This document shows, one piece after another, positions 37,444-58,473 of a stretch of DNA of 64,000 nt. The notes beneath the pieces were generated by a model. That model was given only the letters and a program-made list of their open reading frames with translations. It was not told the DNA's origin and ran no database searches. The translations under genes were made by a program, and so were the position numbers. Numbering within the stretch: the stretch's first letter is position 1; each line of letters opens with the position of its first letter. The stretch is from contig NC_011832.1 in the NCBI RefSeq assembly GCF_000021965.1, positions 1,798,001-1,862,000 of the forward strand. Reading direction: 5' to 3'. The DNA is from Methanosphaerula palustris E1-9c. GTDB taxonomy: Archaea > Halobacteriota > Methanomicrobia > Methanomicrobiales > Methanospirillaceae.

Positions 37444-40320
37444 TCAAAGCATGTTGAAGAGCTGGACGATATCGTTGAAGTCAATCTGTCCGTTATGGTT
37501 GAAATCAAACGCTGCAAGCGGTTCATTTTCCGCGATCCAGTCCATCTGGTTGAAGAAGAGGACCACGTCGTTGAAGTCGATCACCCCGTTCCCGTTCAGA
37601 TCCTCATACAGCCCGTCGTGATTGGGGTCTGTCGGCATCGCAGTCTGTCCATAGACACGGACCACACCACTGACCACCGGTGATGTAACCGTAATATAAT
37701 TCGTTTTGGTGACGGTCATCACACCTCCGCTGTTTCTGACCATCAGGCTCACCGTATAGGTGCCGGCGGTTGTGTAATTATGCACAGGATTCTGTGCTGT
37801 CGAGGTCGCACCGTCACCGAACTGCCAGAACCAGTTGGACGGCTGGTTCAACGAGCGGTCCGAGAACTGGACCTGGAATGGAGCGGTTCCCTCCGTTGAT
37901 CCCGCAGAGAAGTCCGCGATCGGGGACGGAAGGTTTGCAACCACACAGGCAATCTTCGAAGTGTTCGATACCCCATACTGGTTGAAGACGATCATCTGGA
38001 CGGTGTAGACCCCTTCATGGGTATATGTATGGACCGGGTTCTGCAGCGTCGAGAAGTTTCCATCACCAAACTGCCAGTAATACCCGACCGCTGTTCCACC
38101 GGTCGACATGTCGGTGAAGGAGACGTCAAACGGCACGGTACCGACCTGCGGTGTGGACGTGAAGGCTGCAACCGGTTTTCCTGCGAGATGGATGTACGCG
38201 TCCTTCGTGACGGACGTGGTGCCATACGGGCTTGTGGCGGTCAGGGTGACCGTATAGTTGCCCCCATTCTGGTAGAGATGCACTGGATTCTCCTCCTTTG
38301 AGGTCGTTCCATCACCAAAGTCCCACTGCCAGGCCGTTTGACCATTCGGCGTGGTATCGGTGAACCTGATGGTCGTCGGCGCAATACCGGTGGTGGCGTC
38401 TACACTGAAATCAGGGTCGGCAACGATATAATCGGTCTTGGTCTCATGATCGCTGCTCCCAGGGAAGGAAGCGGTCAGCTGGACCGAATAGACACCAGTG
38501 ACCCCGTACAGATGCTGTGGATTCTGGGAGGCGGAGACACTACCGTCACCAAAGTTCCAGATCCACCCCGAGGGGGCACCAGACGAGTGATCGGTGAACT
38601 GGATGGTCTGACCGGCGGTGATCGTTCGTGGGGTGGCCGTGAACCCGGCATAGACCCCTTCACCAACCGTGATAATCTTTGTGGTATTACTTGAGCCGAA
38701 TGAATTTGAAACGGTCAGCGTGACCGTCTCTATCCCGTCTTCCAGATACTGGTGCTGGGGGTTCTGGAGGGTTGAGGTACTGCCGTCCCCAAAGTTCCAG
38801 GACCAGTTCGCAGGCGACCCGGTGGAGAGATCCGTGAATGAGACAGAGAGCGGTGCCGACCCGGTGAGAGGGGTCGCCTGGAACTGAGCCACCGGGGAAT
38901 GAGTCGCTGGCTGGGTCGGCGTGACGTTCACCGTCGGGGTGACATTCCGTGAATCATTCGAACCCCAACTGAGCGAATAGGTGTTACCCTGCCCCTCCTG
39001 ATTGATGATCGGCAGGGAGGTGTTGTTCCCATAGGCCGTGATATTGAAGGACGAATCGGTGACCGGGTACTGGTAGGCTTCCTCATCATAATACCATCCG
39101 AGCATCGACTGGTAATTCAGGTTACCGCCGATATTATTCTGTGAGAAATGATTCAACACGATATGATCTGCAAAGGCCGACCAGAGTCCCCAGAACAGAT
39201 TGTCACTGGTCGTGCAGTTGTTCAGAGTGATATCGGAAGCGGCTTTCACAATCTTCCAGCCATAGGTCGAACCGGTATCTGTACAGCCGTTGAAGACCAC
39301 ATTATTCCCACCCTGGACAAAGTAGCCGGCATTCTTATTGTTCTCGGAGATACAGTTGGTCAGCACTGCATTGAAATGGACAAAGTAGCCTGAGAGGAAG
39401 GTGTCATGGTAGGGGAACTGCTGCGGGTTCCGCTGGCCATTGTCTCTGCTGACACAATCGGTCATGATGATTCCTTTCTTGACCGTGGGCGGGGTCTTGT
39501 CCTCACCCGGTTCAAAGTGGAACCCGGACTCCCAGTTATCCTCTGCAAGGCAGTCGATCAGCTGGACGTCATAGAGATCATTGTCCTCCTGCAGATCATA
39601 CCCGGTGATCCACTCGGACGGGGAACCGCCAGACACCCCGAATCCACAGCGGATGGCCTGACAACTGATGAAGCGTATATTTCGGGTCTCCTTTGGCAGG
39701 TTGATCGCATTCAGATGGAATCCATGAGTCACCGAGTCGACAGCCTTGCAGTTGATGAAGATCACATCCTCGATGGTACTCCCGTCCCCCCAGAGATAGA
39801 ACATTCCGTCATTCTTGGTCGAATACCGCTTGCCATCAAGGCCGATACTGGTCGCCGTCACATCCTGCACGATCACCTGACTGGCACGGATCGTCACCGC
39901 CCCCTGCCCCCGAAGGGTGAAGCCCCGGAGGGTGATCCCGGAATATTTGACACTGATCGAGATATAGGAGTTGAGCGGGTTGAGCATCTCGATCACCGTA
40001 CTATCCTGCCCACTCCCCAACAACTCAGATCCAGCAGTCGGAAAGATCACATCAGAACAGTGAAAGGTGCCCTCTGTCAGTTGCACCGTCCCGACTTCAC
40101 CAGGTAGGGCATTGAAAGCCGCGTTGATCTCAACCTGGTCATTATATCCATCACAGATATAATTAGCAGCTGCTTTGGATGCAGCGCTGCTGTCACTGGC
40201 GGCCACCGTCACCGTCTGCGCCGTCACCGGACCGATCAGCAGAAGCAGCAGCACGATACATCCAAGAGCAACGAAAAAGCCGGCTCTGCCCCCACAACGG
40301 GTCTCCTTTCCATCCATCAT
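37444..40320 (-). CDS. Exported beta-helix / five-PKD / dockerin surface protein
   Basis: The 958-residue protein starts with a signal peptide (FFVALGCIVLLLLLIGPVTA). Residues about 50-440 form a right-handed parallel beta-helix of the pectate-lyase/NosD kind (ITLRGFTLRGQGAVTI, CVSRDNGQRN, NAGYFVQGGNNVVFNGC). Five PKD domains follow (about 475-875), each with a W-x-F/QFGDG motif. The last 75 residues form a dockerin: two calcium loops, DPNHDGLYEDLNGNGVIDFND and FDFNHNGQIDFND (asparagine/aspartate rich). Dockerins normally bind cohesins, but no cohesin is in the window. The start has GGAG nine bases upstream. Confidence 0.88.
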   Translation of the reverse strand: MMDGKETRCGGRAGFFVALGCIVLLLLLIGPVTAQTVTVAASDSSAASKAAANYICDGYNDQVEINAAFNALPGEVGTVQLTEGTFHCSDVIFPTAGSELLGSGQDSTVIEMLNPLNSYISISVKYSGITLRGFTLRGQGAVTIRASQVIVQDVTATSIGLDGKRYSTKNDGMFYLWGDGSTIEDVIFINCKAVDSVTHGFHLNAINLPKETRNIRFISCQAIRCGFGVSGGSPSEWITGYDLQEDNDLYDVQLIDCLAEDNWESGFHFEPGEDKTPPTVKKGIIMTDCVSRDNGQRNPQQFPYHDTFLSGYFVHFNAVLTNCISENNKNAGYFVQGGNNVVFNGCTDTGSTYGWKIVKAASDITLNNCTTSDNLFWGLWSAFADHIVLNHFSQNNIGGNLNYQSMLGWYYDEEAYQYPVTDSSFNITAYGNNTSLPIINQEGQGNTYSLSWGSNDSRNVTPTVNVTPTQPATHSPVAQFQATPLTGSAPLSVSFTDLSTGSPANWSWNFGDGSTSTLQNPQHQYLEDGIETVTLTVSNSFGSSNTTKIITVGEGVYAGFTATPRTITAGQTIQFTDHSSGAPSGWIWNFGDGSVSASQNPQHLYGVTGVYSVQLTASFPGSSDHETKTDYIVADPDFSVDATTGIAPTTIRFTDTTPNGQTAWQWDFGDGTTSKEENPVHLYQNGGNYTVTLTATSPYGTTSVTKDAYIHLAGKPVAAFTSTPQVGTVPFDVSFTDMSTGGTAVGYYWQFGDGNFSTLQNPVHTYTHEGVYTVQMIVFNQYGVSNTSKIACVVANLPSPIADFSAGSTEGTAPFQVQFSDRSLNQPSNWFWQFGDGATSTAQNPVHNYTTAGTYTVSLMVRNSGGVMTVTKTNYITVTSPVVSGVVRVYGQTAMPTDPNHDGLYEDLNGNGVIDFNDVVLFFNQMDWIAENEPLAAFDFNHNGQIDFNDIVQLFNML

Positions 40321-41685: not shown

Positions 41686-42480
41686 TCAGGGGGCCTTTAT
41701 AAATATCTTCTGAATAGCGTTGACAGGTACAAAGAGTGACTCGATCTCACGCCCGAGGTACTCGGTCTTCCCCATCACATAATAGCCCCCTGACACTAGG
41801 GCTGTATGAAAGGTTCTGGCTAGGTCGTTCTTCTGCCCTTCAGTGAAGTAGATCGTGACATTTCTGCAGGTGACAAGATCCAGGTACCGCGCAATGGGGA
41901 TCCCGGACATCAGATCATGTTTGCTGAACCGGATCATCGCCTTGAGATGGGGTTTTACGGCAAAGGTTCCATCTCCAAGATCAGTGAAGTGTCGACGGAT
42001 CTGGTTATCGGTCAGTTTCTTCAGGGATTTCTGGTCATAAACCCCCTCTTTGGCCCTGGCGAGGATCTGATCGTCGATATCGGTGGCATAGATCACACCG
42101 GACAGATCAGTTCCGGAATTTGTGAGGTCATAGAGGATCATAGCCAGTGAGTATGGCTCCTCACCCGACGAACATCCGGCACACCAGATCCGGATCTTCT
42201 TTCGGTCCGAAAGCACCGAGGGGATCAGATCCCGTTTGATCAGTTCAAACACCTCAGTGTCCCGAAAAAACTCGGTCACATTGATCGTCAGAGCATTTCT
42301 GAGTTTTTCCGATTCCTCAGGATGTGACCGCAGGTATCGGAGGTACTCCTCATGGGTAGCCGTGTTGGTCGACCGCATGCGGGAGAGGAGGCGCCGCTTG
42401 ATATAGGCCTCCTTGTAGTTCTCGCAATGAATATGAAGGGTCTGTTCAATCGCCTTCTTTAACGCCTCGAAATCGTCCAT
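41686..42480 (-). CDS. cheR: Chemoreceptor methyltransferase CheR
   Basis: CheR uses SAM to methylate glutamates on chemoreceptors. The 264-residue protein has the N-terminal helical domain (IKRRLLSRMRSTN), NVTEFFRD, the SAM motif IWCAGCSSGEEPYSLAMIL, YATDIDDQILARA, and the late motif DLVTCRNVTIYFTEG. It is the last gene of the run parA - receptor - PAS/CheW - cheR, starting 10 bases after the PAS/CheW stop with GAGG upstream. No CheB methylesterase is in the window. Confidence 0.95.
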   Translation of the reverse strand: MDDFEALKKAIEQTLHIHCENYKEAYIKRRLLSRMRSTNTATHEEYLRYLRSHPEESEKLRNALTINVTEFFRDTEVFELIKRDLIPSVLSDRKKIRIWCAGCSSGEEPYSLAMILYDLTNSGTDLSGVIYATDIDDQILARAKEGVYDQKSLKKLTDNQIRRHFTDLGDGTFAVKPHLKAMIRFSKHDLMSGIPIARYLDLVTCRNVTIYFTEGQKNDLARTFHTALVSGGYYVMGKTEYLGREIESLFVPVNAIQKIFIKAP

Positions 42481-42490
42481 ATCAGATCCT

Positions 42491-45214
42491 CTACTGGTTT
42501 ACCAGCCGGCTCAGCACCTTCAGCATATCGATCCAGATGATCAGGTCGGTTGTCTTCCCCTCTGCATCGTCACCCTTTGCCTTGATGATCCCTTTTACAA
42601 ACCCGGAGAGGTCGGATGAGGCATCATCCTTGATCTGCTCGATATCAGTCACCGGCACCTGGGTAACGCTCTGGACATTGTCGACGATGATACCGACATT
42701 GATCCCTTCTGCAGCATCAGGGACGAGAACGATGATCTTCTGGTTCTGATTGACCTCCTGCTCAGGGAGTCCCAGCAGTGTATACAGGTTCAAAATATTG
42801 GTGATCTCGCCCCGGAGGTTGATGATGCCTGAGATATATGGAGGAGAACGGGGGATCGGGGTGATCGGAATCATCTCAACGATCTCGCGTGCCAGCTGTA
42901 TATCAAGTGCATACCGCTGACCAGCCATTTCAAATGCCACCACATCCACCATCGTGGTTGAGGCCTGTTTTTCCTCTCGATTCTGTTCTGTAGCCATAGA
43001 TCTCTGTTCCTCTATCTTTGTGGGCATCCTCTGCTCCTGCAAAGGACTGACGATCTTCAGATCTGGTAGAACAGCTGCCGGCACTGATGATACTGGTTCA
43101 GGTACCAGATCCTCATCCTTAACGGGGGGAACCAGCGTTTCAGGAAGTTCCGTCTCAACAGGTGCTGCCTCAACCGGTACCGGCTCATGCTGTACTGCCA
43201 AAACCCCATAATCAATTGTGGGAAGAGCAGGTGCTGGAACTGGTGACTGGACCGGTGCGAGCCGGATACCTGCACTGTTCACGGCTCTCCGCACCTCAGA
43301 GAGCGGGTCCTGATCCTGAACCTGGAGGGAAGTGAACCCATCTGTCCCGAGCAGTGAAAGACCCAGCACAACCCCGGCGCTGCTCTCCTGCAGCCGGTCA
43401 GCGCTCTTCACCTGATCTTGCTTTATCGTTTCGATCGTATCGATCAGGGTCTGCTCCGCATCTGAGGGTCCCGCAGTCTCCGGTACCTGGTTCTGAACCT
43501 GTTGCCGGTCGGCCGTCTGTTCGTAGTCTTCGATCACTGCACGAACCCGGTCGACAGCAGTGTTGAACACCCCTTTGATCGAACCGAAGGGATCGCCTTC
43601 ATCGATCTTCAAATGAGAGGTAAAGTCCCCATCTGCCAGACGGGAGATTCCCAGTCCCAGATCCTCAACACTCTGATCGATGAGAAGATCGCGACTCGAT
43701 GCCTCCTCTTCGAGTGTCAGGATCGTCTTTTCCTGGGTTTTTTCATGCGTCTGATCATCGAAGAAGACCAGCAGGTTGGTCAATGTTCCCTGGTCGTCGC
43801 GGAGGGGGAAGCAGTAACGCTCAAGGTCGTGGATTCCGCTGACGAACTCCATCTTCACTTCCCCAAAGGCCCCTTCGCTCTGCTGCATGATCTCCTCAAC
43901 CGGGAGTCCAGTCTCTGCAAGGAGGGAAAAGGCAGAGATCGGCATACCGAGAAGATTTTCCAGCGTGTATCCACTCATCGTGACAAAGGCATCATTGGCA
44001 GAGACGATGACCGCCTCGGGGTCGAGGAGCAGAATCGGGACGGGCGTCTCGCGCATCAGGGTATCGATCAGCCGTTTCTGCTGCAGAACGGTGCTGGAGA
44101 GTTCACTCACCTGGTGCTCGTCCGCTCTCTCTGAAGAGATGTCCTCGAGGGCACAGAGGATGATCATCCCCCTGGGAAGGCCTTCGCCAGGCTGTTCGGT
44201 GAGCAGGACCAGATCCTCTCTGAGAAGATGGAGGCCGGTTGGAAACTCCACCGAGATCTCACGAGAGATTCGACGCTGATCTGAGGAGAGAAACGCTCCT
44301 GCCGTGAGTGCAGTGAGGTTTGCATACTCGTTCAGCCGGACCGTCAGTAGATGCTCCCGGCTGTACCCGCTCATCTCACAGAACGCAGGATTGACATCGA
44401 GTATTGCATCTGCTCCGTCGATGATCATCACCGGCGTCGGAAGACCGTCCACCAGATTCTTGTTCTGCAGTTGTTGCCGTTCAATCTCCTCTGACAGAGA
44501 TATCCGGGCTTTCTCCTCCTGTTTCAGAGCGGTCTGATCCGTAAAGATCACCTGCAGAGCCTCCACAGCCCCGAACCGATCGAGGATCGGAACCGCGTAC
44601 TGTTTCAACATTTTGGTCCCAGCTGGCAGGTCGACGGTGATCTCCGCCTCCACAGGCAAACGCTGGCGGATGGCCGTGGCCAGGCCGTCACCCTGCCGCT
44701 CACGCTCAGCAATGACCGAGATCTGATGCCGGATCAACTGCGATCGCAGCAGTCCGCTCATCTGACAGAACGCACTATTCGCCTCGATGATCGACAGGTC
44801 AGGGGAGACAAAGAGCACCGGCAAGGGGTGCTGCTGGATGATCGCTGCGATCCGCTGCTGCAGATCCTCGATCTCTGCCTCTTTCTCTTTGAGCAGTGCA
44901 GGGTCAGGACCCGGTTCCGACACATGAGAGGGAGGGGGCGTCTCGGTGAGCCGGAAGACCGCTGCATTGACCGCTTCGACAAGCGGAGTATATTTGATAT
45001 CCAGATCGGCAGGGTGCACCTCCGTCGACCTGGCACCGGATAACGCTTCAGTCAATGCGCTGGTGACCGTGCTGATCAATCGCTCTACACTGGGATCAGG
45101 GCCCCGTACTTCGGCTCTTTCTGCCACTGCCTCCCCCACAGGGGCCGGTATCGCCGTCCTCTTCTGTGCCGAGGTTCCAGCGAACAATGCTCTTCTGCCT
45201 GGTCGTTCTGCCAT
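42491..45214 (-). CDS. Triple-PAS, HAMP-like protein with C-terminal CheW domain
   Basis: The 907-residue soluble protein has three PAS domains (about 130-245, 260-375 and 395-510), each with IDGADAILDVNPAFCEMSGY-like cores. A HAMP-like unit with DEGDPFGSIKGVFN (about 530-575) and a second weaker one (DQDPLSEVRRAVN) follow. Then comes a proline/valine-rich linker (about 670-760) and a CheW domain at 760-907 (FEMAGQRYALDIQ, ISGIINLRGEITNILNLY, VGIIVDNVQSV). The layout copies the neighbouring receptors, but CheW stands where the receptor signalling hairpin would be. It may bring PAS sensing directly to the array core. It sits between the receptor gene and cheR. Confidence 0.88.
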   Translation of the reverse strand: MAERPGRRALFAGTSAQKRTAIPAPVGEAVAERAEVRGPDPSVERLISTVTSALTEALSGARSTEVHPADLDIKYTPLVEAVNAAVFRLTETPPPSHVSEPGPDPALLKEKEAEIEDLQQRIAAIIQQHPLPVLFVSPDLSIIEANSAFCQMSGLLRSQLIRHQISVIAERERQGDGLATAIRQRLPVEAEITVDLPAGTKMLKQYAVPILDRFGAVEALQVIFTDQTALKQEEKARISLSEEIERQQLQNKNLVDGLPTPVMIIDGADAILDVNPAFCEMSGYSREHLLTVRLNEYANLTALTAGAFLSSDQRRISREISVEFPTGLHLLREDLVLLTEQPGEGLPRGMIILCALEDISSERADEHQVSELSSTVLQQKRLIDTLMRETPVPILLLDPEAVIVSANDAFVTMSGYTLENLLGMPISAFSLLAETGLPVEEIMQQSEGAFGEVKMEFVSGIHDLERYCFPLRDDQGTLTNLLVFFDDQTHEKTQEKTILTLEEEASSRDLLIDQSVEDLGLGISRLADGDFTSHLKIDEGDPFGSIKGVFNTAVDRVRAVIEDYEQTADRQQVQNQVPETAGPSDAEQTLIDTIETIKQDQVKSADRLQESSAGVVLGLSLLGTDGFTSLQVQDQDPLSEVRRAVNSAGIRLAPVQSPVPAPALPTIDYGVLAVQHEPVPVEAAPVETELPETLVPPVKDEDLVPEPVSSVPAAVLPDLKIVSPLQEQRMPTKIEEQRSMATEQNREEKQASTTMVDVVAFEMAGQRYALDIQLAREIVEMIPITPIPRSPPYISGIINLRGEITNILNLYTLLGLPEQEVNQNQKIIVLVPDAAEGINVGIIVDNVQSVTQVPVTDIEQIKDDASSDLSGFVKGIIKAKGDDAEGKTTDLIIWIDMLKVLSRLVNQ

Positions 45215-45272
45215 CTCAATCCCCTCCTCTCACGCTCGTGTTCTCTCCGGATCTATGATCTTTCATTCCGAT

Positions 45273-48200
45273 TCACTCCAGCTGGAACTGAACGATCAGC
45301 CCCTTCACATGGTCAGACATCGTGGTGAGCTCCCCTGCAGCACTTGAGATCTCCTCAGAGGATGCACTCGTCTCTTCAGCGAGGGCAGCCAGATCCTCCA
45401 TCATTCCCAGGTTTTCCTTGACATTGCCGGCAGATTCCTCGATCCCTTCCATCACCCGGTTGGTCGCCTCTGCCTGGTCTCCTGTCGCCCGTGAGATCTC
45501 ACTGATCCCCTCAACCAGTTTGTCAGCTTCGACGGTGATCCGGTTCAAGGAATCGATCGTCTTTCCGACACTCTCGATGCCCACCTTGATCTCATTGTAT
45601 GAGGTCTGCATTGAGGAGGCAGTCTTGTCAGAGTTCTTCTGGATCGACACGATCAGATCCTCGATCTGCTGACTCGCCTTCCTCGATTCACTGGCAAGGT
45701 TCTTGACCTCGCCGGCAACGACCGCAAATCCGCGACCGTGTTCACCAGCACGGGCCGCTTCAATGGCTGCATTCAGGGCCAGCAGGTTGGTTTGGTTGGC
45801 AATCTCAGTGATCAGGTTCACGATCTTGGTGATCTGGTGCATCTGTTCATTGAGCTGATTGATCTCATGCACACTCTGCTCAGAGATCTCCTCCACCACC
45901 TTCATCTTCTGCGTGGCATCCTTTCCAAGCCCGGCCGCCTGGTTCCCTTCCTGGGCAACTCTGGCTGCCAGGTCCCGGACCGTCTGGGAGGTACTGGCGA
46001 TCTCCTCGATCGACGCCGAGAGATCCCCAATCTCTCTGCTTACCCCTTCGATTCGATCGAGCTGCACCTTTGCAGCCTCAGAACTTTTCTGGGTTGCGAT
46101 CGCGACTTGTTCGACAGCCCTGGCCACCTCTTCAGTGGACCTGCTGGAATCCTCGATGGTGAGGTTCAACTGGACCATCGATCCTCTGATACTAGCAATA
46201 ACATCCCGGATAGCCGCTATGGCGTCATTATAATCTCGCTTGACCCCGGTCAACGGGTCACCGTCCTCGATGGACACGACATGTGTCAGATTTTTCGCCG
46301 CGATCAGGGACATGCACTCGTCGAGATCGACACAACTCCTCGAGAGTTGATCAGCCTTCTGCTGCGACTCCTTCATCATCACCTGGATCTCCTGCTCCTG
46401 CGCACGCTGCGTGGTCACATCATTGTACACGATCAGGATGTTGACCAGGGAACCATCATCGGCAAGGATGGGGATTCCGTACTGTTCAAGAGTACGAGCG
46501 CCTATTGGAAACTCAACGGTCACCTCACCGGTAGCCGGCAGATGTTCCCTGACCACCCGACGGAGCCCCTCCCCCTTCTGCTCAAGGATCTTGAAATCAC
46601 GTGCATTCATCCGCTGCAGACGATCCCGATCGATACTGGTCAGTTCCACATAGGCGTGGTTGGTGACCACGATATTGAATTCGGCATCAGTCAGCAGGAT
46701 CGGCATCGGGTTCTCCTGCACTATCGTCTCAGACCGATGCTTCAACTGGCTGATCTGATGCATCTTCTGCCGTTCCTCGGTCACATCATTGTACACGATC
46801 AGGAGCCTCGAAAGTTCACCGGCTGTGGTGAAGACCGGAATGCCATGCTGTTCAAGGGTCTTTCTCCCTGCAGGGAAGTTGACGATCAGCTCGCCGTAGG
46901 TCCGCTGTTTCTTTTGGAGCAACTCACGCAACCCTTCGCCGCTATGCTCAATGACGTCGAGATCAGTGGCAGACATGGTGAGCAACCGCTCCTTCTCAAT
47001 GCCGGTCAGTTTCACATAGGCATCGTTGGTGACCATGATATGGAACTTCTGATCCAGAAGAATGATCGGCATCGGATTCTCCTGCACTATCGTATCGGTC
47101 TGGTGCTGGAGCTCCCGGATCTCTGTCATATGCCGTACAAGTTCCTCTTCACCGCTCTTCCGGTCGAGGTAGGTCTTGAGCATGTCCGAGAGCGAGTTGA
47201 TCAGGTTCCGCTCCTCTGCGAGGAACGGTCCCTCAGCCTCGGCCGGCTTCTCTTCGAGGTATACGACCTCGATGACACCCTCTTTTCCACCCTTCACACT
47301 GAACTGAGCAGTCTGTGACCAGGAAGTCTTCCGATAGTTCCTGGTCCTGACATCGACGTCACCCACCGTGATCCTCGCTGCTGTCACCTCGGGGTACTGC
47401 CAGCCGGGCGGGATCAACTCAACAATCTCGGAGAGAACCTCTGCCGTGGTGTGGAGATCATCCTGGATCAGCGTGGCTGTCGAGTAGAAGAGGGTCTGTT
47501 CCTTGACCCGCTCGCCATAATTATGGAGCAGTGCTTCCTGCTCTTTGATCCGCTCTGCCAGGTGCTCATCACCGCTCTTCCGGTCGAGATAGGTCTTGAG
47601 CATGTCCGAGAGCGAGTTGATCAGGTTCCGCTCCTCTGCGAGGAACGGTCCTTCGACCTCGGCCGGCTTCTCTTCGAGGTATACAACCTCGATGACACCC
47701 TCTTTTCCACCCTTCACACTGAACTGAGCAGTCTGTGACCAGGAGGTCTTCCGATAGTTCCTGGTCCTGACATCGACGTCACCCACCGTGATCCTCGCTG
47801 CTGTCACCTCGGGATACTGCCAGCCGGGCGGGATCAACTCAACAATCTCGGAGAGAACCTCTGCCGTGGTGTGGAGATCATCCTGGATCAGCGTGGCTGT
47901 CGAGTAGAAGAGGGTCTGTTCCTTGACCCGCTCGCCGTAATCATGGAGCAGTGCTTCCTGCTCTTTGATCCGCTCTGCCAGGTGCTCTTCACCGCTCTTC
48001 CGGTCGAGGTAGGTCTTGAGCATGTCCGAGAGCGAGTTGATCAGATTCCGCTCCTCTGCGAGGAACGGTCCTTCGACCTCGGCCGGCTTCTCTTCGAGGT
48101 ATACAACCTCGATGACACCCTCTTTTCCACCCTTCACACTGAACTGAGCAGTCTGTGACCAGGAGGTCTTCCGATAGTTCCTGGTCCTGACATCGACGTC

Positions 48201-49304
48201 ACCCACCGTGATCCTCGCTGCTGTCACCTCGGGATACTGCCAGCCGGGCGGGATCAACTCAACAATCTCGGAGAGAACCTCTGCCGTGGTGTGGAGATCA
48301 TCCTGGATCAGCGTGGCTGTCGAGTAGAAGAGGGTCTGTTCCTTGACCCGCTCGCCGTAATCATGGAGCAGTGCTTCCTGCTCTTTGATCCGCTCTGCCA
48401 GGTGCTCTTCACCGCTCTTCCGGTCGAGGTAGGTCTTGAGCATGTCCGAGAGCGAGTTGATCAGATTCCGCTCCTCTGCGAGGAACGGTCCCTCGGCTTC
48501 GAACGGTTTATCCTCAAGATAGACCACCTCAAGAGTTCCACGGTTTCCATCTTTGATAGCAAAGGAGGCCTCCTGCTTCCAGGCAGTCTTTTGAAAGTGG
48601 GGGGTCCTGACATCGATATCACCCACCGTGATCCTGGCCGCCGTCACTTCAGGATACTGCCAGCCGGGTGGAATCAGGTTCACCACCTCTGAGAGCACCT
48701 CCTCAGGAGTCAGTGAATCATCCTGGATCAGCGCAGCCGTGGCATAGAATAACTTCTGCTCCTTGACCCGTTCACCATAGTCATGGAGCAGTTTCTGCTT
48801 GATCTTCTCGGTCTCTTCCTCCGCCCGGACTCTGCGGGTGATATTTTTGAAGATGAAGACCACTGTACTGATCTGTTTACCCTCTTCACATACAGGAATA
48901 CAGTACTGTTCCAGGGTCTGCACCCCTGCAGGGAAAGTGATCGTGACGGTCCCGGTCGTTCTTCTTCGCTGGGTGAGGGCTTCACGAGCACCTTCCCCCT
49001 CCTGTGAAGAGATCATGAAGTCCTGGATCTTCTTGCCGACAAGTTTTTCCTGAGATATTCCACTCAGATCAACAAACGCTTCATTTCCCTTCAGAATCGA
49101 AAACTCACCATCGGTGATCAGAATCGGTTGGGGACTGAGTGAAAAAACGGTCGACCACTGGGAGGCGGCTTGATTGAGATCTAAGGAGTTCTTACTCTCC
49201 ATATTCATATGTGATGCCACCGACCGCTGGTCAGCGCTGACCTTCTGTCCATCCATGCGACCAGAGTTGTTCTCTGTCACGACCTCTTTACGAGTCATCT
49301 CCAT
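45273..49304 (-). CDS. Large soluble chemoreceptor: PAS, four GAF-like repeats, two PAS, HAMP-like, MCP signalling domain
   Basis: The 1343-residue protein has no membrane segment. A PAS domain lies at about 50-160. Four 140-residue repeats follow at 172-311, 312-451, 452-591 and 592-719, each with [28 protein letters not shown] and [21 protein letters not shown]. This is the GAF-like module often found before kinases. Then come two PAS domains (about 730-850 and 855-970), a HAMP-like unit ([13 protein letters not shown]), and the MCP hairpin with tip [29 protein letters not shown]-type sequence. The ATG follows GAGGTGAT and overlaps the parA stop by 10 bases. Confidence 0.93.
47148..48791 (-). 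repeat. Four tandem 420-bp coding repeats inside the large receptor gene
   Basis: The period is exactly 420 bp (140 codons): CGGTCGAG[GA]TAGGTCTTGAG recurs at 47161, 47581, 48001 and 48421. Units 2 and 3 (48371-47952 and 47951-47532) differ at only a few bases, unit 4 (47531 to about 47148) is about 98% identical to them, and unit 1 (48791-48372) is clearly diverged except at its end. Recent unequal crossing-over or gene conversion is the likely origin. Confidence 0.97.
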
Positions 49305-50188
49305 CTCATCACCTCATCTGCAATCTTCTTGTACGCTCGAGTTGCATCGGTATCCGGAGCGAACTGGGAGAGGGGGAGACCGCGCTGCTGCGCCTCGTAG
49401 ACCTCGGGCTGGAACGGAACGGTGTATACCAGTTTGAACTTCTTTCTGACCACCATCTCCATCCGAAGCATCCGCTCACGTTCCTGCTCCTTTTCCCTCT
49501 TCACCCTGGTCTGATCTGCTGTGAGCACAGGTTCCTGTGCCTTAAAGAGTCGCCTGGCAAGAGCGGTGAAAAAACCGACGTTCTGCTCCAAGACCTCAGG
49601 TTCAGAGGTTTCAGACCGCCACCGGGTCAGTATGGCCATCTCTGGACTGACCTTCTTTCCAACCATCGACTCGATATCTGAGAAGATTGCTTCAAGGGCA
49701 TCGATGCCACGGAGTGCAAAGATCCCCGCGTCAAGCGTGATGATGATATGATCCGAGGCGACCAGACCATTGATGACAAACTGGCCCATACTCGGCGGTG
49801 TATCGATCAGAATATAATCATACCCACCAACCACCGGGGCGAGCAACTCCTTGAGGACAGTCGCACGTTCATCGAGCGTGTACAGGGGCGGTTCGACCCC
49901 GACGAGATCAAGGTTTGAAGGGGCGAGGTCGATCCCGGATTCAGTCGGAATGATGATCTCATGCAGCGGCACTTCAGGGAACCCCTCGAATATGCCCATA
50001 AAAACATCATACATATTCTGCTTCTGTGAATCAGGGAAGATGCCCAACCCCATCGTTGCATTTGCCTGGGGATCACAGTCAACGATTAGCACCTTCTTTC
50101 CGGCGTCGACCAGCGCACCAGCTATATTCAGACACGACGTCGTCTTACCAGTGCCACCTTTATGGTGAGTGAACGCGATGACCGGCAT
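49295..50188 (-). CDS. ParA/Soj-type P-loop ATPase, chemosensory-cluster partner
   Basis: The 297-residue protein has the deviant Walker [20 protein letters not shown] (second lysine before GTGKT), [13 protein letters not shown], the Walker B region [13 protein letters not shown] and a DNA-binding-type basic C-terminal half. ParA ATPases position plasmids, chromosomes or protein clusters. No ParB gene or centromere-like repeat is next to it. It overlaps the receptor gene start by 10 bases and heads the receptor - PAS/CheW - cheR run, so cluster positioning as in bacterial PpfA/ParC is the likely job. ATG 50188 is chosen; a GTG lies 3 codons earlier. Confidence 0.9.
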
Positions 50189-50220
50189 AGATACCACTTA
50201 GTATGGTGTAAGTGTCAAAA

Positions 50221-50232
50221 GGATATATAAGG
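50221..50232 (-). promoter_or_regulatory. TATA box of the parA-receptor-cheR run
   Basis: On the minus strand CCTTATATATCC lies about 38 bases before the ATG at 50188, placing the transcript start about 10-12 bases before the gene. This marks the left operon as separate from the one at 50351-54315. Confidence 0.6.
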
Positions 50233-50350
50233 TGTATATCCGCGCCATCCGGGATTTCTGTCATTTGGGTGAGAACTGAACGATTCTATCGATTCATACG
50301 GGATGGTGGATCTGTCAGGAAAGGGATTGTGACCGGATCGGATTCACCAG

Positions 50351-50740
50351 TCACTGACCTGCAGTGATGACCTGATTCAGCGCAATCACCAGATCATTGA
50401 TACTGTAGGGCTTGGGAACGACACCACTGAATCCATATGTCCTGAAATCAGCCATGATCGGATCATTGGAGTACCCACTTGATACGATCGCAGCCACGGT
50501 CGGATCGATCTCCTGCAGGGTAGTGATCGCCTCTTTTCCCCCCATACCTCCGGGGATTGTCAGGTCCATGATCACTGCATCAAACCTTTGATCCGCCAGG
50601 AATGCCTCACGATAAGCAGTGATCGCCTCAGACCCGTCCCGAGCGCAGACCACCTCAAATCCACGACGTTTGAGCATCTGACTCATCACATCGAGAATAC
50701 TCTCCTCGTCATCCATCAGCAGTACCCGGCCAGAACCCAT
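50351..50740 (-). CDS. Single-domain response regulator (receiver)
   Basis: The 129-residue protein is one receiver domain: RVLLMDDEESILD (acidic pair), phospho-acceptor Asp59 in DAVIMDLTIPGGMGG, SSGY (T/S site) and PKPY (conserved lysine). ATG 50740 follows GGAAAGGTC; an upstream extension to 50842 is not receiver-like. It resembles the receivers of hybrid kinases more than archaeal CheY. It could be the output or phosphate relay of the array. It is the last gene after the receiver-kinase and receiver-receptor genes. Confidence 0.9.
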   Translation of the reverse strand: MGSGRVLLMDDEESILDVMSQMLKRRGFEVVCARDGSEAITAYREAFLADQRFDAVIMDLTIPGGMGGKEAITTLQEIDPTVAAIVSSGYSNDPIMADFRTYGFSGVVPKPYSINDLVIALNQVITAGQ

Positions 50741-50891
50741 GACCTTTCCTTCCTGCCTCTTCTCCACCGTACCAGCTCCACCACTTCTGCAAATACATCT
50801 GTGGCTGAAAGATATATGGTGATCGCTCATTCCCCCTTCCATCGAGGAGATCCCAATCCATCTCCTTCACTGATCTTTCAAGAGAGTCTGA

Positions 50892-53147
50892 TCACTTCAG
50901 GGTGAACTGCTGGACAAGACCCTTCAGTTCCACCGCCATCACCTTCATCCGACTTGCTGCGTTGGCGACCTCTTCTGTGGAACTGCTCGACTCCTCCGAG
51001 AGTACTGTCAGTCTGACCATCTGCTCTTCGTCGGCGTGCATCAGTTCATTGACCCGGTCCACGCTTCTGGTCATGTTGTTGGTAGCATTGGCCTGTTCCT
51101 CTGTCGCTTTGGATATATCTGCAATGCCATTGACTGTGTTGCCGACGTCAGCAGTCAGATTGTTCAGCGCACTGATCGCTTTATTCACAATCTCTATACC
51201 ACCGATGACCTCACGGTAGGCATTGTTCATCGCCTCGGCAGTCTTCTCGCTGCTCGTCGTGATCTCGCCGATCACATCCTCGATGCTGGTGGTGGCCTGC
51301 TTGGACTCCCCGGCCAGCGAACGGACCTCGCCGGCAACAACGGCAAACCCACGGCCGTGTTCACCGGCACGGGCCGCCTCAATGGCCGCGTTCAGGGCCA
51401 GCAGGTTGGTCTGGTTCGCAATCTCCGTGATCAGCCTGACGATCTTACTGATCTCACCCAGTTTCTGGTTCAGGTGAGTGATCTGCCGGACCGCCTCGCT
51501 GGAGATGGCCTCCACCTTCTTCATCCGGTCGGTCGCCTCACTTCCCAGGGCAGCTGCTTCATTACCTTCCTTCATCACCTGCAATGAGAGGCCCCGCACC
51601 TCGCTGGAGGTGCTGGCGATCTCCTCGATTGAAGAACTGAGGTCCGAAACCTCCCCGGTCACACGATCGAGCTGGTCACGCTGGGTCTTTACACCATCAG
51701 CAGTACGCTGTGCCGTGCTGGCCACCTGCCGGGTCGATTGGGCCAGTTCTTCAGCACCTCTCCCCACATCGATCACCACCTCTTCGAGGCTCACAGCCTG
51801 TTTGGAGATCTGCTCCATCGTCTGTCGTAACTGTGAGATCGTCTCGTTCTGATCAGCCTTCACCTGCCCCAGCGGATCACCGGGATAGGTCTTTGCAGGG
51901 AGGGTGAGGTTTCCACGAGCCACAGCCGCAAGACTCTCAGCCAGTTCACCGACGCTCTGATTTAACTGCTTGTCACGTTCCAGCTTTTCGGTAATATCGC
52001 TGTACACCGACATGATATTGACGATCCTCTCCTCCTTGTCCAGCAGCGGGATGGTGTGTTGCTCAAGGTTATGAACCCCCGAAGGGAATTTGACGGTCAC
52101 ATGACCGGTCACACCCATCTTTGTCTGCAGCGCTTCACGGAGGCCGTGTCCGCTCTTTTCGAGGATCTTGAACGATTTGGCGCTCATGGATTTGAGTTGA
52201 TCAGCAGAGAGACCACTCATCTTCAAGTATGCCCGATTGGCTGATGTGATGTTTAAGTCAAGGTCCATCAACAGGATCGGGAGCGGATTCTGTTCGATCA
52301 TGGTGAAGGTATGCTGCTGAAGCTCGGCTATCTCCTCCATCTGCTTATACATCGCGCGTTCGTTCTTCTTCCGCTCGGTTGAATCACGAATGATCGCAAG
52401 GACAGCCCGATCCTTACTGAATACCACCTGGGAAAGCCTGACATCGGTATCAAAGAGAGAGCCGTCAGACCGTTTGAAGATCCACTCGGTCGCCTGAGCA
52501 TCGCCGGCTTTTGCGTTCAGGAGCATCCGGCTGAACTCTGCCGGAGTGTTCCCCCCCTCCGGTGTGGAGGGACCAAAGAGTGTACTGATAGCAACCCCAA
52601 GCAACTGCTCCTTCGTCGGATACAGGAACAGGTCGGGCGTTCCACTGTTCATTTCAACGATCCGTTCATCCCGAATCAGCATGATCGCGTCATAAGCAGC
52701 GTCGATCATTGCCTGAAATTTCTTCTCTTCCTCCAGATGCTGTTCATCGTCACGGCGGTGCTGGAGACGGACAGCCGCCTCAGACAGTTCACGTTCAATA
52801 GCAGGGACCAGTCGGGCATACCGCCCCTTGGTGATGAAGTCCTGTGCTCCAGCCTTCATCACCCCAACAGCAGTGTCCTCGTCGATCACCCCAGAGACCA
52901 TGATGAACGGGAGATCAGGATCAATCTTCCGGGTCAGGTTGAGGGCTGACAGACCATTGAATCCTGGCATGGCATAGTCGGATATTACCAGGTCCCATTG
53001 TTTATTCCGGAGCGCATCCTCCATCGCGACAGCGGTGTCGACCCGCACCCACTCAACATCATAACCACCCTTCTTCAGTTCATAGACGAGGAGTCCTGCA
53101 TCGTCCTCAGAGTCTTCACCGATCAGTGCACGTACATTCTGCGTCAT
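50892..53147 (-). CDS. Receiver-PAS-PAS-HAMP-MCP soluble chemoreceptor
   Basis: The 751-residue protein joins a receiver domain (1-125; LIGEDSEDD, Asp57 in [17 protein letters not shown]) to two PAS domains (about 145-270 and 285-400). A HAMP-like unit ([14 protein letters not shown]) and a complete MCP signalling hairpin (about 480-751) follow; its tip has [19 protein letters not shown]. No membrane segment is present. The receiver would let a histidine kinase control the receptor. The gene starts 7 bases after the stop of a receiver-kinase gene, with GGTGAGG as ribosome site. Confidence 0.93.
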
Positions 53148-53154
53148 AACAACC

Positions 53155-54315
53155 TCACCTTAAAATTTTGTTCATATCCGGGGAATTCACGGATGATTTC
53201 TGTTCATCCTCAACAGGGGGGACTGACTGTTTCACCGGAAGGGTGAACCTGAAGACTGCGCCTCCAAGAGGCTGGCCCTCCGCCCAGATCACCCCGCCAT
53301 GACGATGAACGATCCGTTGTACCGTGGCGAGGCCGATCCCGGTTCCGGGGAACTCAGAGATCGGATGGAGCCGATGGAATGGAGCGAACAGGTGTTCGGC
53401 TTGCTCCATATCAAAGCCGGCCCCATTATCCCTGACACCAATGACCTGCTCGCCACCCTGCTCCTCACTGAAGATCTCGATCTCCGCATCGACAGTCTTT
53501 CCAGTATATTTCCATGCGTTCTCGATCAGATTCCAGCAGACACTCTGGAGCAGTGAACGATCCGCCGTGGCCATGATCCCCGGTTCGACCCGCACCCGGA
53601 CCTTCCGTCCCGGATGGGTATGCGTCAGCTCTTCAAGGATCTCGGATGCCATCCTGCTCACATCGATGGATTCATAATGGAGGGTAGTCCTGCTCAGCCG
53701 GGAAAGGAAGAGAAGTTCGATGATCAGGTCATCCATCTTCTTTGCAGCTGCCTGGATCCGGGACAGATACCCCTTTTCATCCTCCCCGAGTTTTTCATCA
53801 CAGAGGTCGAGGAGGATCGAAGTGTAGCCGTCGATGGTCCTGAGCGGCGCCCTGAGATCATGAGAGACCGAGTAACTGAACGCCTCCAGTTCCCTGTTTG
53901 TTGCCGCGAGTTGTGCCTGTTGGGACTTCAACCGCTGCTCCACCCTGTGCCTGGAGAGAACCAGCTGGATCGAGGAATGAAGATCCCGTTCGCCGAACGG
54001 CTTGATCAGGTAACCATACGCTCCGGTCTCCACAGCCCGTGCAATCGTATCATCATCTGCATAGGCAGTCAGATAGATCACCGGAAGGTCATACCGCTCA
54101 TGGATGATCTGTGCTGCCTGGATACCATCCATCCTACCCTGCAGGTGAACATCCATCAAGATGAGATCTGGTACCCGTTTCTCAACCGCAGCGATTGCAT
54201 CATCTCCAGTAGCCACTATCCCGGTGACATTAAAATGAAGGCTCTTCAACCTTTTTTCAATAGACAGGGCGACAATCGCCTCATCTTCCACAATCAGTAC
54301 CGACTCAAATGTCAT
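53155..54315 (-). CDS. Receiver-histidine kinase
   Basis: The 386-residue soluble protein has an N-terminal receiver (VLIVEDEA, Asp55 in [23 protein letters not shown]). A HisKA domain has phospho-acceptor His152 in [16 protein letters not shown], and a HATPase domain has [21 protein letters not shown] and [18 protein letters not shown]. It is the phytochrome-type kinase core common in methanogens. As first gene of an operon with a receiver-receptor and a lone receiver, it is the likely phosphate donor to both. Confidence 0.92.
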
Positions 54316-54923
54316 GTGATTTTAACTCCAGACACCCATGCTCAGAGGAGCGAACTCCACGGTATGCTGATCCAGAAGGTGGACATTGCACCGTTCCCCA
54401 TGGTATCAAGCGTCACCTTCTTTTGGTTGGCAGGATGATGACCTGTTCGATCGTTTAAAATCAGGGGGATGAAGTCCGGAGAGCCGGTTCAGGATCCGAC
54501 AGTGCATAAACCACCTGAGATGAGATAATCAGGCAAAGTTGATTCCAACCTGCCTCAAGGCATCGCCTCTATTATCCACTCATTCATCTGTTCATTTAGG
54601 AGCGTATTAAATCTGTGATCTGTATCTCAATCTGAATTCGACCGGAACAACTGAAAATAGAACCATTCCCTAACCAGATATGACAGCCGACCTGGTGAAG
54701 CAGATCGAACAGAAGATTGGGACCGATCCGAATCCCCTTTGATATGCGCGGCATGGAGACCTGAAACAGTACTTTCCCATGCCCACCCCATCCAGGCAAG
54801 ACCGTTGAGACCGGACGACATCTCATCTCACCTGAGAGATGAATGCAGTCCGGGTCAAGCCAGATGGGAATCGGTATCGCAGTCGTTCCTTCTCACCGAT
54901 CGGTGCTCCTCTCGCCGGGAGTA
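54316..54923. other. 608-base stretch without a recognisable gene
   Basis: Only short frames with no family likeness are present. It contains TGAGATGAGAT at 54516-54526 and its exact reverse complement ATCTCATCTCA at 54820-54830. The hairpin at 54823-54842 lies about 80 bases beyond the cheW stop on the minus strand. The right half may hold the promoter of the receiver-kinase operon, but I see no clear TATA box. Confidence 0.4.
54823..54842. terminator. Stem-loop downstream of cheW
   Basis: TCATCTC and GAGATGA are perfect 7-base arms around a 6-base loop. It has no T-run; it may end or stabilise the receptor-cheW transcript. Confidence 0.3.
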
Positions 54924-55463
54924 CTAAAGGGTATGATGGATCGAACTGAGAAGGTACCTGATATCGATCCAGATGATCAGTTCTGTGATCTCCTTCTCCT
55001 TTATTTTAGTCTTCTTTTTGATGATCCCAATGATGGTGGTGTCCTCAGTCGTGGTCACCCGGGTCTTGTCGACCTGGGTAAGCGAGAACGTCGAGACCGA
55101 CGAGACATCATCGACCATGATACCTACCTTTGACTTGGTGATCCGGTCATCAAGCACGATGATCCTGCACTCTTCGTCCCGGACTTCGATGTCGGCCGGA
55201 ATGTTCATCTGCTGTTTCAGATCGATGATCGTGGTGATCTCACCACGAAGGTCGATGATCCCTTTGATATAGGAAGGAGTGTTGGGGAGTTTTGTGATAT
55301 TGGTATACTCCACCACCTCCCGCACATCGAAGAGATCGATGGCGAAGTGCTCTTTTCCGAGGAGAAACTCGACCACCTGAACGTCACCTGATAGTGCGCC
55401 CGATTTATCTCTTGCCGTTTGCGGCGAGAGGATGTTCCCGGGTTCTGCTGAAGGTTCTGTCAT
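54924..55463 (-). CDS. cheW: Chemotaxis coupling protein CheW
   Basis: The 179-residue protein is a CheW domain after a 28-residue polar N-terminus: VVEFLLGKEHFAIDLFDVREVVE, SYIKGIIDLRGEITTIIDLK and VGIMVDDVSSV. CheW links receptors to a CheA kinase in the array. Its ATG lies 13 bases after the stop of the poly-HAMP receptor, with GAGG 8 bases upstream, so the two are co-expressed. No CheA is encoded in the window, so the partner kinase must be elsewhere or of another type. Confidence 0.94.
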   Translation of the reverse strand: MTEPSAEPGNILSPQTARDKSGALSGDVQVVEFLLGKEHFAIDLFDVREVVEYTNITKLPNTPSYIKGIIDLRGEITTIIDLKQQMNIPADIEVRDEECRIIVLDDRITKSKVGIMVDDVSSVSTFSLTQVDKTRVTTTEDTTIIGIIKKKTKIKEKEITELIIWIDIRYLLSSIHHTL

Positions 55464-55476
55464 CTGTACACCCTCG

Positions 55477-58290
55477 TCATACCGTGAACTTGCTCATCTC
55501 TCTGGCGACGGTATCAGCGATCATATTCACATTCTCGACGATCTTCCGGACCTCGTCGATCGCAGCCGAGGTCTCTTCACTCGCTGCGGCTGCATCGCCG
55601 GCTTCACTGGCAGTGCCTTCAACCAGACTGCCGACTTCGTGAACACTGGCCGTAATCTCCTCGACGGTGGCTGCCTGCTCTTCAGAGGCGCTCGCGACCT
55701 CTTCGACCGAGCGGGTGATCTTCTCGACGTCTGCCACGATTCTATTGAAGACGTTCAGGGTCTCAGAGAGCACTGCAGATCCCTCGCGGACCTCCTTTGA
55801 TGCGGATGCCGTGGCCAAAGCCGCCTTTTCAGACTTGGTCTTGAGCCCCCCGATCATCTCTGCGATCGACTCTGCAGAGGTCCTCGACTCCTGAGCCAGG
55901 GACTTCACCTCGGCTGCAACCACGGCAAACCCACGGCCGGCATCGCCGGCCCGGGCCGCCTCGATGGCCGCGTTCAGAGCGAGCAGGTTGGTCTGGCTGG
56001 CCAAGTCCGAGATCAGACCGACGATCTTTCCAATCTTGTCCATCTCAGCCTTGATTTCGACGATGATCTGGTCCACTTCTGTGGTGGACCGGGTGATCCC
56101 GACCATCCCCTGCTCGGCCTTCCGTGCGAGTTCTGCTCCGTCCTTGGAGAGCGTGTTCGCACCGTTGGCGAGGGTGGCCACGGACTCGGTACTGGCGGTC
56201 ACCTCCTCGACGGCTGCAGAGAGATCCTCCATCGCCTTGAGCACCTGCTCGAGGCCCTGGTTCCCCTTCTCAGCGTTGGAACTGACCTGGCCGGCGTTGT
56301 CGGCGACCTGCTGTGCCCCAGAGACCACCTCCTCAACGCTGGCCGCTGCCTCCTCAGCCGAAGCGGCAAGGTCGGTCACCTGGATATTGATCGCACCGAC
56401 GGCGTTCGTCACCGCGATACCGATACTATCCAGAGAATCCTCAAACCTGACAAAGTCTCCTGCAACCCCCAGACTCCGATCAAACCGGGCTGTGAAGTTA
56501 TACTGGGAGAACTCGTGCGCGACCCGCAGCGCTTCGTTGACCGGCGCAATCACGGCATCGAGTGTCTTGTTGACCCCCTCGATGATCTTCCGGAAGTCGC
56601 CCTGGTGTCTGGTTGCGTCCGCCCGGGTCGCGAGCTTCCCTTCAACTGCTGCCACCGAGAGCATCCCCGCATCCGCGACGAGTGCATTGAGGTTGTCGAT
56701 ACAGTTGTTGATGCTCCTCTGCATCGCGACGATGTCGCCGTTCACCTTGTTGGTTCTCTTCGCAGGAATGTCACCATTACCGATTTTATTATAATAATCT
56801 ATGGCTACATTCAATGGAGCGATGATGGCATCAAGCATCGCATTGACACCCTCCATCATCTTTTTGTTACCGCCCTGGAACTTGGAAGGATCGGCGCGTG
56901 TTGTGAGTTTACCCCCAATTGCAGCCTCTGTCAGCATATCGAGTTCAGTATTCCGCATCACAATCACATCGATCTGCTGATTCAGGTTATGCATCAGAAC
57001 ATTGAAGTCACCCTGATAATCCGCTGTGATCTTTTCAGGTGCGATCCCTGCGCTGATCTTGGCAACAAAATCGGCAGCGATATTCAATGGTCCGATGACC
57101 GCATCGAGGGTCTGATTGAATCCCTCGATGATCTTCCCGTAGTCGCCCTTATGTTTTGTTGCGTCCGCCCTTATCGAGAGTTTGCCTTCAACGGCCGCTT
57201 CAGCAAGCATCCCCGCATCGTTGATGAGGCCATTGATCGCCAGCTGCGCCTCCCGCAGGTTCTCATTCATCTTCACAAAATCATCATGCTCTGCCTGGGT
57301 GAATTTATCAGCCGGCTTGACGGCCAGATTGAAGTTGAGGTTTCCTTCTGCAAGCAGAGTGAGATTGGTGGCCATCCGGTCCACCTCGGCCTTGATGAAG
57401 TCACGGACCGCAATGACCGAAGTGAGATCCTCCACGACTTCAACATATCCAATCTGGTTACCATCCTGGTCGCGAAGGGACGAGGTGGTCTGTTTGCCAT
57501 TCATATCGCCCCAGACGAAGTAACTCTCGGTGACCCCCTTGTGCAGCTGCCGGATCCCACACCCATCGGTGTTGCATATCGTCGCATTGGCAGTGGAGCA
57601 GGGCAGCCCCATAGAGGAGTCGCGGTTTTTAATTGTCCCCTGCTGGATCAACGTCTTCTCAAAGGCCGCATTCATCAGCGTCCACTTCATATCCATATCA
57701 GTGACATGGATCGGGAACGGCACCGCGTCGATGATCGCCTTGTACCAGTTGTTCTTCGCCACAAAGATGTCGAGGAGGTTGTTGATCCCATCGGCCATCT
57801 TCTTGAAGTCACCGGTATGAAAGGCCGGGTCCGTTCGTGCTGAAAAGTCCCCTTTTTCCACCTTCTTCGTGACGTTGACAATATCGGCGACTGCCTTCTT
57901 CTGTCCGGTCACTTCAGGGAAGTACTCGATTGCACCGATCACCTTTCCAGAACTGTCAGTCAGGGGTGCACCGGTCACATTGATGACCACATCCCCCATG
58001 GTGATCTCAACACTATAATTGATCCCCTTCTCCATCGCAATCCTGCACGGACACTCAGGGGTGTTGCAGTTTGGAGAGCGATAGAGGTCAGAGCACTTCT
58101 TGCCGATGATATCGTCCCGCTTTTTTCCTAGAAGCGTAGCTGCAGCCTCGTTCGTATAAAGAATCCGGTAATCTGTACCGATCACATGCATCGGAACGGG
58201 TATTCGGTCAAGCCCCTGAGTGAGGAGCGCCATCGTAGTTGGATCAGGTCCCAACGATCCAGATGAATTGTCCACGCTTTGCGGAGACAT
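55477..58290 (-). CDS. Soluble poly-HAMP chemoreceptor with two cysteine-rich PAS domains
   Basis: The 937-residue protein has PAS 1 (about 20-125) with [20 protein letters not shown], a HAMP-like unit, and PAS 2 (about 180-285) with [19 protein letters not shown]. At least four HAMP-like units follow (about 290-620), three of which share EGKLxxRADAT and (I/M)(I/M)EGxNxxLDAVI. The MCP hairpin (about 640-937) has tip sequence [19 protein letters not shown]. No membrane segment is seen. The paired cysteine clusters suggest a metal, haem or redox sensor. ATG 58290 is chosen because GGAG lies 8 bases upstream; a GTG three codons earlier overlaps that site. Confidence 0.92.
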
Positions 58291-58473
58291 GTCAGGCACT
58301 CCTGCTGAAAAAATCTAACAGCATTCCAGATCTTCCTGCATACCACATATTCAAACCCGGAACGACCTCGCCGATCCAGGACTCCCTCACTCCTCTGAAG
58401 ATTCTCATGATATTCCCTACTGAGTGCACATCTGCTATGCAGATCCGCATCATCTATCCAGTAGGAGGGTCTT

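Follow-up and report, generated by a model that had tools for sequence, protein, structure and literature searches.

The sensor array of a cytoplasmic MCP from Methanosphaerula palustris E1-9c has probably grown stepwise by unequal crossover (or slippage), as judged from the sequence of one genome. In the present study, we analysed a window of 64,000 nucleotides (NC_011832.1, positions 1,798,001 to 1,862,000) of this genome, which consists of a single contig of 2,922,917 bp. The window carries a chemoreceptor gene whose product has the domain order PAS, four GAF-like units, PAS, PAS and MCP signalling domain. The signalling domain was recognised by its Pfam profile and by a hairpin tip motif of 15 residues. 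The receptor contains no transmembrane segment (highest 19-residue hydropathy 1.23) and is on that ground predicted to be cytoplasmic (soluble). The features of the gene, numbered from the first base of the window, are as follows.

45273-49304, minus strand: soluble chemoreceptor gene, 1343 aa (ORF; Pfam PAS and MCPsignal)
48825-49157, minus strand: N-terminal PAS domain, aa 50-160 (PF00989, PF08448)
48372-48791, minus strand: unit 1 (U1), diverged over its first 300 nt (unit comparison)
48372-48491, minus strand: U1 tail, 120 nt, equal to the U2 tail, where the homogeneous tract starts (silent divergence 0 here, 0.70 elsewhere in the unit)
47952-48371, minus strand: unit 2 (U2), putatively the newest copy, nt 1-326 equal to U3 and nt 301-420 equal to U1 (unit comparison)
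48046-48071, minus strand: 26-nt interval of U2 (offset 301-326), identical in all units, inside which the presumed crossover must fall (unit comparison)
47532-47951, minus strand: unit 3 (U3), presumed template of U2, with private bases at 47589 and 47568 (unit comparison)
47112-47531, minus strand: unit 4 (U4), putatively an older copy, its last 33 nt unique and joining the next PAS domain (unit comparison)
47146-48491, minus strand: near-identical tract, 3.2 periods of 420 bp (TRF, offset-420 comparison)
46350-47102, minus strand: two further PAS domains, about aa 735-985, boundaries approximate (Pfam PAS_4, TIGR00229)
45432-45923, minus strand: MCP signalling domain, aa 1128-1291 (PF00015, E = 1.8e-46)

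The units were phased at a stretch of 12 residues, each unit being 420 bp (140 aa) long. An earlier note on this DNA had described three nearly identical 420-bp units inside a receptor gene, and this description was confirmed by TRF, which reported one tandem array at 47145-48495 with a period of 420, 3.2 copies, 98% matches and 0 indels. Only 3 of 420 nucleotides (1 aa) separate U2 from U3 (99.3% identity), and these two are closer to one another than either is to U4, from which they differ at 9 of 369 core nucleotides (97.6% identity). Over the full unit, U4 shows 27 differences from U2 and 28 from U3, and 18 of these sit in its last 33 nt, at the end of the array. U1 shares 74-79% identity with the other units overall and about 70% over its first 300 nt. 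The statement of the same note that U1 is diverged holds for this first part but not for the last 120 nt (48372-48491), which match the end of U2 at every position (100% identity). The near-identical tract thus begins abruptly 300 nt into U1 and stops at about offset 386 of U4, out of phase with the unit boundaries. Within 400 kb taken from other parts of the M. palustris genome, the remaining tandem arrays with periods of 60 bp or more reached only 69-88% matches, which argues that the receptor array is not a chance occurrence and is exceptional for this genome. At L109, L110, L113 and L114 of the genome lie further tandem arrays, whose periods are 141-423 bp and whose matches are 69-82%.

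U2 combines the body of U3 with the tail of U1 exactly, and not one of its bases is private to it, in agreement with the very recent duplication that the earlier note had proposed. The haplotypes at offsets 300 and 327 are distinct in all four units (G-T in U1, A-T in U2, A-C in U3 and G-C in U4), and the diagnostic sites flanking the 26-nt interval of U2 are 48072 (T on the plus strand) and 48045 (A on the plus strand). The corresponding pairs, likewise on the plus strand, read C-A at 48492/48465 in U1, T-G at 47652/47625 in U3 and C-G at 47232/47205 in U4. By sequence, U3 in turn corresponds to a U4 body with the tail and linker of U1. Between U1 and U2, silent divergence drops from 0.70 over the other parts of the unit to 0.00 in the tail (P = 4e-8). 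Purifying selection was rejected as an explanation for this identity, because from one genome to another the tail varies freely at silent positions (divergence 0.53-0.82), and tail identity is therefore ascribed to recombination. Ongoing homogenisation, also suggested before, accordingly stands for the unit ends. All three differences between U2 and U3 lie in the tail, with P = 0.02 when taken alone. Since the tails of U1 and U4, with 1 difference in 86 nt (99% identity), were alike before this, an earlier cycle of conversion or expansion is needed as well. Synonymous differences between units were also counted: of the changes that separate U2 and U3 from U4, 7 are silent and 2 are replacements (Fisher P = 8e-4), which indicates that the copies are under purifying selection.

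The simplest reading is that U2 is the product expected from an unequal crossover inside the conserved end of the unit, and we infer that an ancestral U1-U4 pair became U1-U3-U4 and then U1-U2-U3-U4, in at least two steps. Each step would be an unequal crossover (or slippage) within the 3' end of the unit, which is nearly identical between units and could hence supply the homology for the exchange. In the last step, the U1 tail would have recombined with the tail of the old unit that is now U3, within the 26-nt interval, to give a U2 still free of new mutations; an earlier exchange of this type would have joined the U4 body to the tail and linker of U1. With U1 as the outgroup, U3 and U4 have each gained a few changes since that earlier exchange. 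A step of 420 bp would preserve the reading frame and add exactly 20 heptads, so that a new module should enter in register with the linker helix and leave the signalling hairpin unchanged. The extra copies would then be retained under purifying selection, and older arrays would diverge mainly in the central beta-sheet part of the unit. Such an expansion is matched by copies that are in register, in frame and nearly identical, by a chimeric U2 at the exchange point and by a copy number that differs among orthologues, from 2 to 5 units between species.

Orthologous receptors of eight related genomes, one genome being compared per species, also carry this unit in tandem. Arrays of Methanospirillum have 2 (G073), 2 (G075, M. 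hungatei M59), 3 (G084, M. stamsii), 3, 4 and 5 units, the genus label being the basis for assigning the genomes other than G075 and G084, and two species of another genus (G070 and G071) have 3 units each. As counted in these assemblies, the copy number changes within a genus and is the same within the two closest pairs, G070/G071 and G073/G075, in which orthologous units are 90-95% identical. The number may differ between strains as well, as the earlier note had proposed. The gene apparently gains and loses whole sensor modules, because related species carry two to five copies. In addition, U1 and U2 of G077 were duplicated recently and independently, the breakpoint in that case lying at the opposite unit end. 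In the older arrays, replacement divergence peaks in the middle segment, where it is mostly 0.2-0.37. Of the 393 genomes of the phylum, 91 (the sampled array genomes included) carry single or dispersed copies of the unit, as do several bacteria, and within this same set adjacent units were seen only in the present receptor family.

These comparisons also bear on the possibility that the four-unit array is old and has been repeatedly homogenised by gene conversion, so that its number is old and only its sequences look young. We consider this unlikely, though it deserves some weight: the U1 tail is clearly homogenised with the other units, the units group by lineage in the tree (bootstrap 81-94 for the groups), and the tails of G070 and G071 are more alike than their bodies (mean silent divergence 0.25-0.28 versus 0.68-0.69 in the middle). 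These signs of tail homogenisation in G070 and G071 are weaker than here, however, and none appear in most Methanospirillum arrays, which suggests that homogenisation is episodic. Most of the other arrays show silent divergence of about 0.7 throughout (G073, G075, G076, G083), and the units of G070 and G071 retain their orthologous positions. Furthermore, conversion would have to span a whole 420-bp unit without leaving a trace, whereas one crossover yields the mosaic and the new copy together.

The earlier note had also warned that the repeat could be an assembly trap, which was a fair caution. U2 has no private base, as would be expected of a phantom, and the tract (about 1.35 kb) is longer than one Sanger read. 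The genome was nevertheless finished with 6-kb and 40-kb fosmid libraries, Dupfinisher repeat finishing, transposon bombing and PCR (PMC4645200); moreover, the A300-T327 haplotype of U2 would be absent from a three-unit molecule, and multi-unit arrays are present in related genomes too. We therefore regard it as very improbable that the true gene has three (or more than four) units and that U2 is a phantom or collapsed copy. Recent import of the units from another genome, in place of duplication on the spot, is scarcely credible. It has no specific support, the G+C content being 57% in U2-U4 and 55% in the whole gene, and the units of the compared relatives reach at most 71% DNA identity. No donor with more than 95% DNA identity was found in the genomes searched, no further copy of the 140-aa unit was found elsewhere in the M. 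palustris genome, and the tail junctions match the local U1 and U4. A plasmid origin was rejected, as no match was obtained.

Regarding the nature of the unit, the name "GAF-like" used before is acceptable for the fold, and weakly so, but not for the sequence. In Pfam, one of 15 unit members reached GAF at E = 0.095 and none was above threshold; NCBIfam models gave no match. The AlphaFold2 model of a single unit (pLDDT 86) consists of a helix, a second helix, four strands and a long helix. Credible but weak fold matches (E 0.06-0.3) include the GAF domains 3cit (probability 0.97, TM 0.60/0.56, but E = 0.14), 4g3k (probability 0.98, but E = 0.12) and 3ksf, phytochromes and DosP. "GAF-like" may thus serve as a fair working name, which these models weakly favour, and does not denote family membership. 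Several other candidates were rejected: Pfam CHIPS on the array fell below the cut-off for a single unit and was inflated by repetition, Pfam CcdA was likewise inflated by repetition and does not reflect homology, PDB sequence matches shared only a PPGW motif with WW domains (E at least 0.13), and matches to ribosomal protein folds had low TM-scores. The sensor domain is widespread, occurring in archaeal and bacterial MCPs and histidine kinases, and has no Pfam or NCBIfam model; its motifs are a 10-residue stretch and EGPFLxEERNLIN (window 47112-48791; L070-L074).

The unit is 140 aa long in Methanosphaerula and in the genus of G070/G071 and 133 aa in Methanospirillum, and it is constant within each gene; the seven residues of difference equal one heptad and lie in the linker between units. 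In a two-unit AlphaFold2 model, a continuous helix of 62 residues joins the units, with a pTM of 0.48 that makes their relative placement unreliable. From these lengths and the model we infer that the units may be stacked in fixed register on a coiled coil, whole-unit steps preserving the phase of the helix. The extra units lie N-terminal to the signalling hairpin, and the distance from the hairpin tip to the C-terminus is 160-164 residues in the receptor, in the two neighbouring MCPs of the window and in all relatives, at any number of units. Since the hairpin length is constant, the receptor lattice at the baseplate should be unaffected by the number of units, and the idea that receptor length alters the fit to the array is weakly supported. 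Where cytoplasmic arrays are sandwiched, their sensor ends presumably meet midway (PMC3964821), and it is only there, in the middle of such an array, that the number of units could matter, by changing baseplate spacing.

Several identical modules would putatively form serial binding sites for one cytoplasmic ligand, with more sensitivity or cooperativity, and duplicated modules might later allow new ligands. It is unlikely that the unit number is a fast and reversible tuning knob, with recombination between identical modules switching the cells of one population among 2, 3, 4 or more units; if true, receptor sensitivity would change with no alteration of the signalling hairpin or the lattice. 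The orthologues form a natural series in which the count of one sensor module (2, 3, 4 and 5) is the main difference and the signalling hairpin is constant, and one array appears to be caught just after duplication. It can therefore be tested how multi-sensor receptors grow and whether an identical serial sensor alters gain, sensitivity or nothing. The findings also draw attention to a widespread sensor domain that lacks a family model.

No described variable sensor array was found in the literature for these receptors. Tandem protein repeats in general, in a study that also covers archaea, evolve mostly by birth and death with some concerted evolution, and share with the present case in-frame duplication and purifying selection on the copies (PMC5120217, Nat Commun 2016). 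Here, in distinction from that study, the unit is a whole chemoreceptor sensor domain, the last step may be resolved to a crossover interval of 26 nt, and a set of orthologues ranging from 2 to 5 units is available. The archaeal multi-PAS/GAF cytoplasmic sensors of PMC5847659 (J Bacteriol 2018) are likewise soluble with several modules in series; in the accessible part of that paper they appear as domain combinations, whereas near-identical, recently copied units are a feature of the present receptor. As in the signalling helix and coiled-coil linkers (PMC1592074, Biol Direct 2006), a predicted helical linker of whole heptads connects sensor modules and output, but the ERT signature of the S-helix was not seen by eye in the linker of the receptor.

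Two genes flank the receptor closely.

49295-50197, minus strand: ParA/MinD-like ATPase gene, overlapping the receptor start by 10 nt (AAA_31, E = 1.6e-47)
42491-45214, minus strand: PAS-PAS-PAS protein with a C-terminal CheW domain, after the receptor (ORF, Pfam)

A soluble MCP with a gene for a ParA-like ATPase and a protein with C-terminal CheW is also found in Rhodobacter sphaeroides (TlpT/PpfA, PMC3964821) and Vibrio (ParC/ParP, PMC5706961). The genes here resemble those of a ParA-positioned array, which the receptor may putatively form; in contrast to those systems, no ParA gene was seen next to the orthologous receptor in the relatives. The chemotaxis cluster (window 41686-58299) comprises genes for CheR, PAS-CheW, the receptor, ParA and a response regulator, followed by REC-PAS-PAS-MCP, REC-histidine kinase, CheW and a poly-HAMP MCP; CheA was not among the genes examined in it. 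Outside the cluster, G000:C1:997038-998855 (L004) resembles an MCP but contains two TAG codons in frame and is probably either a pseudogene or a pair of neighbouring genes, and window 37444-40320 (minus strand) encodes a protein of 958 aa, largely PKD domains, which is probably a surface protein.
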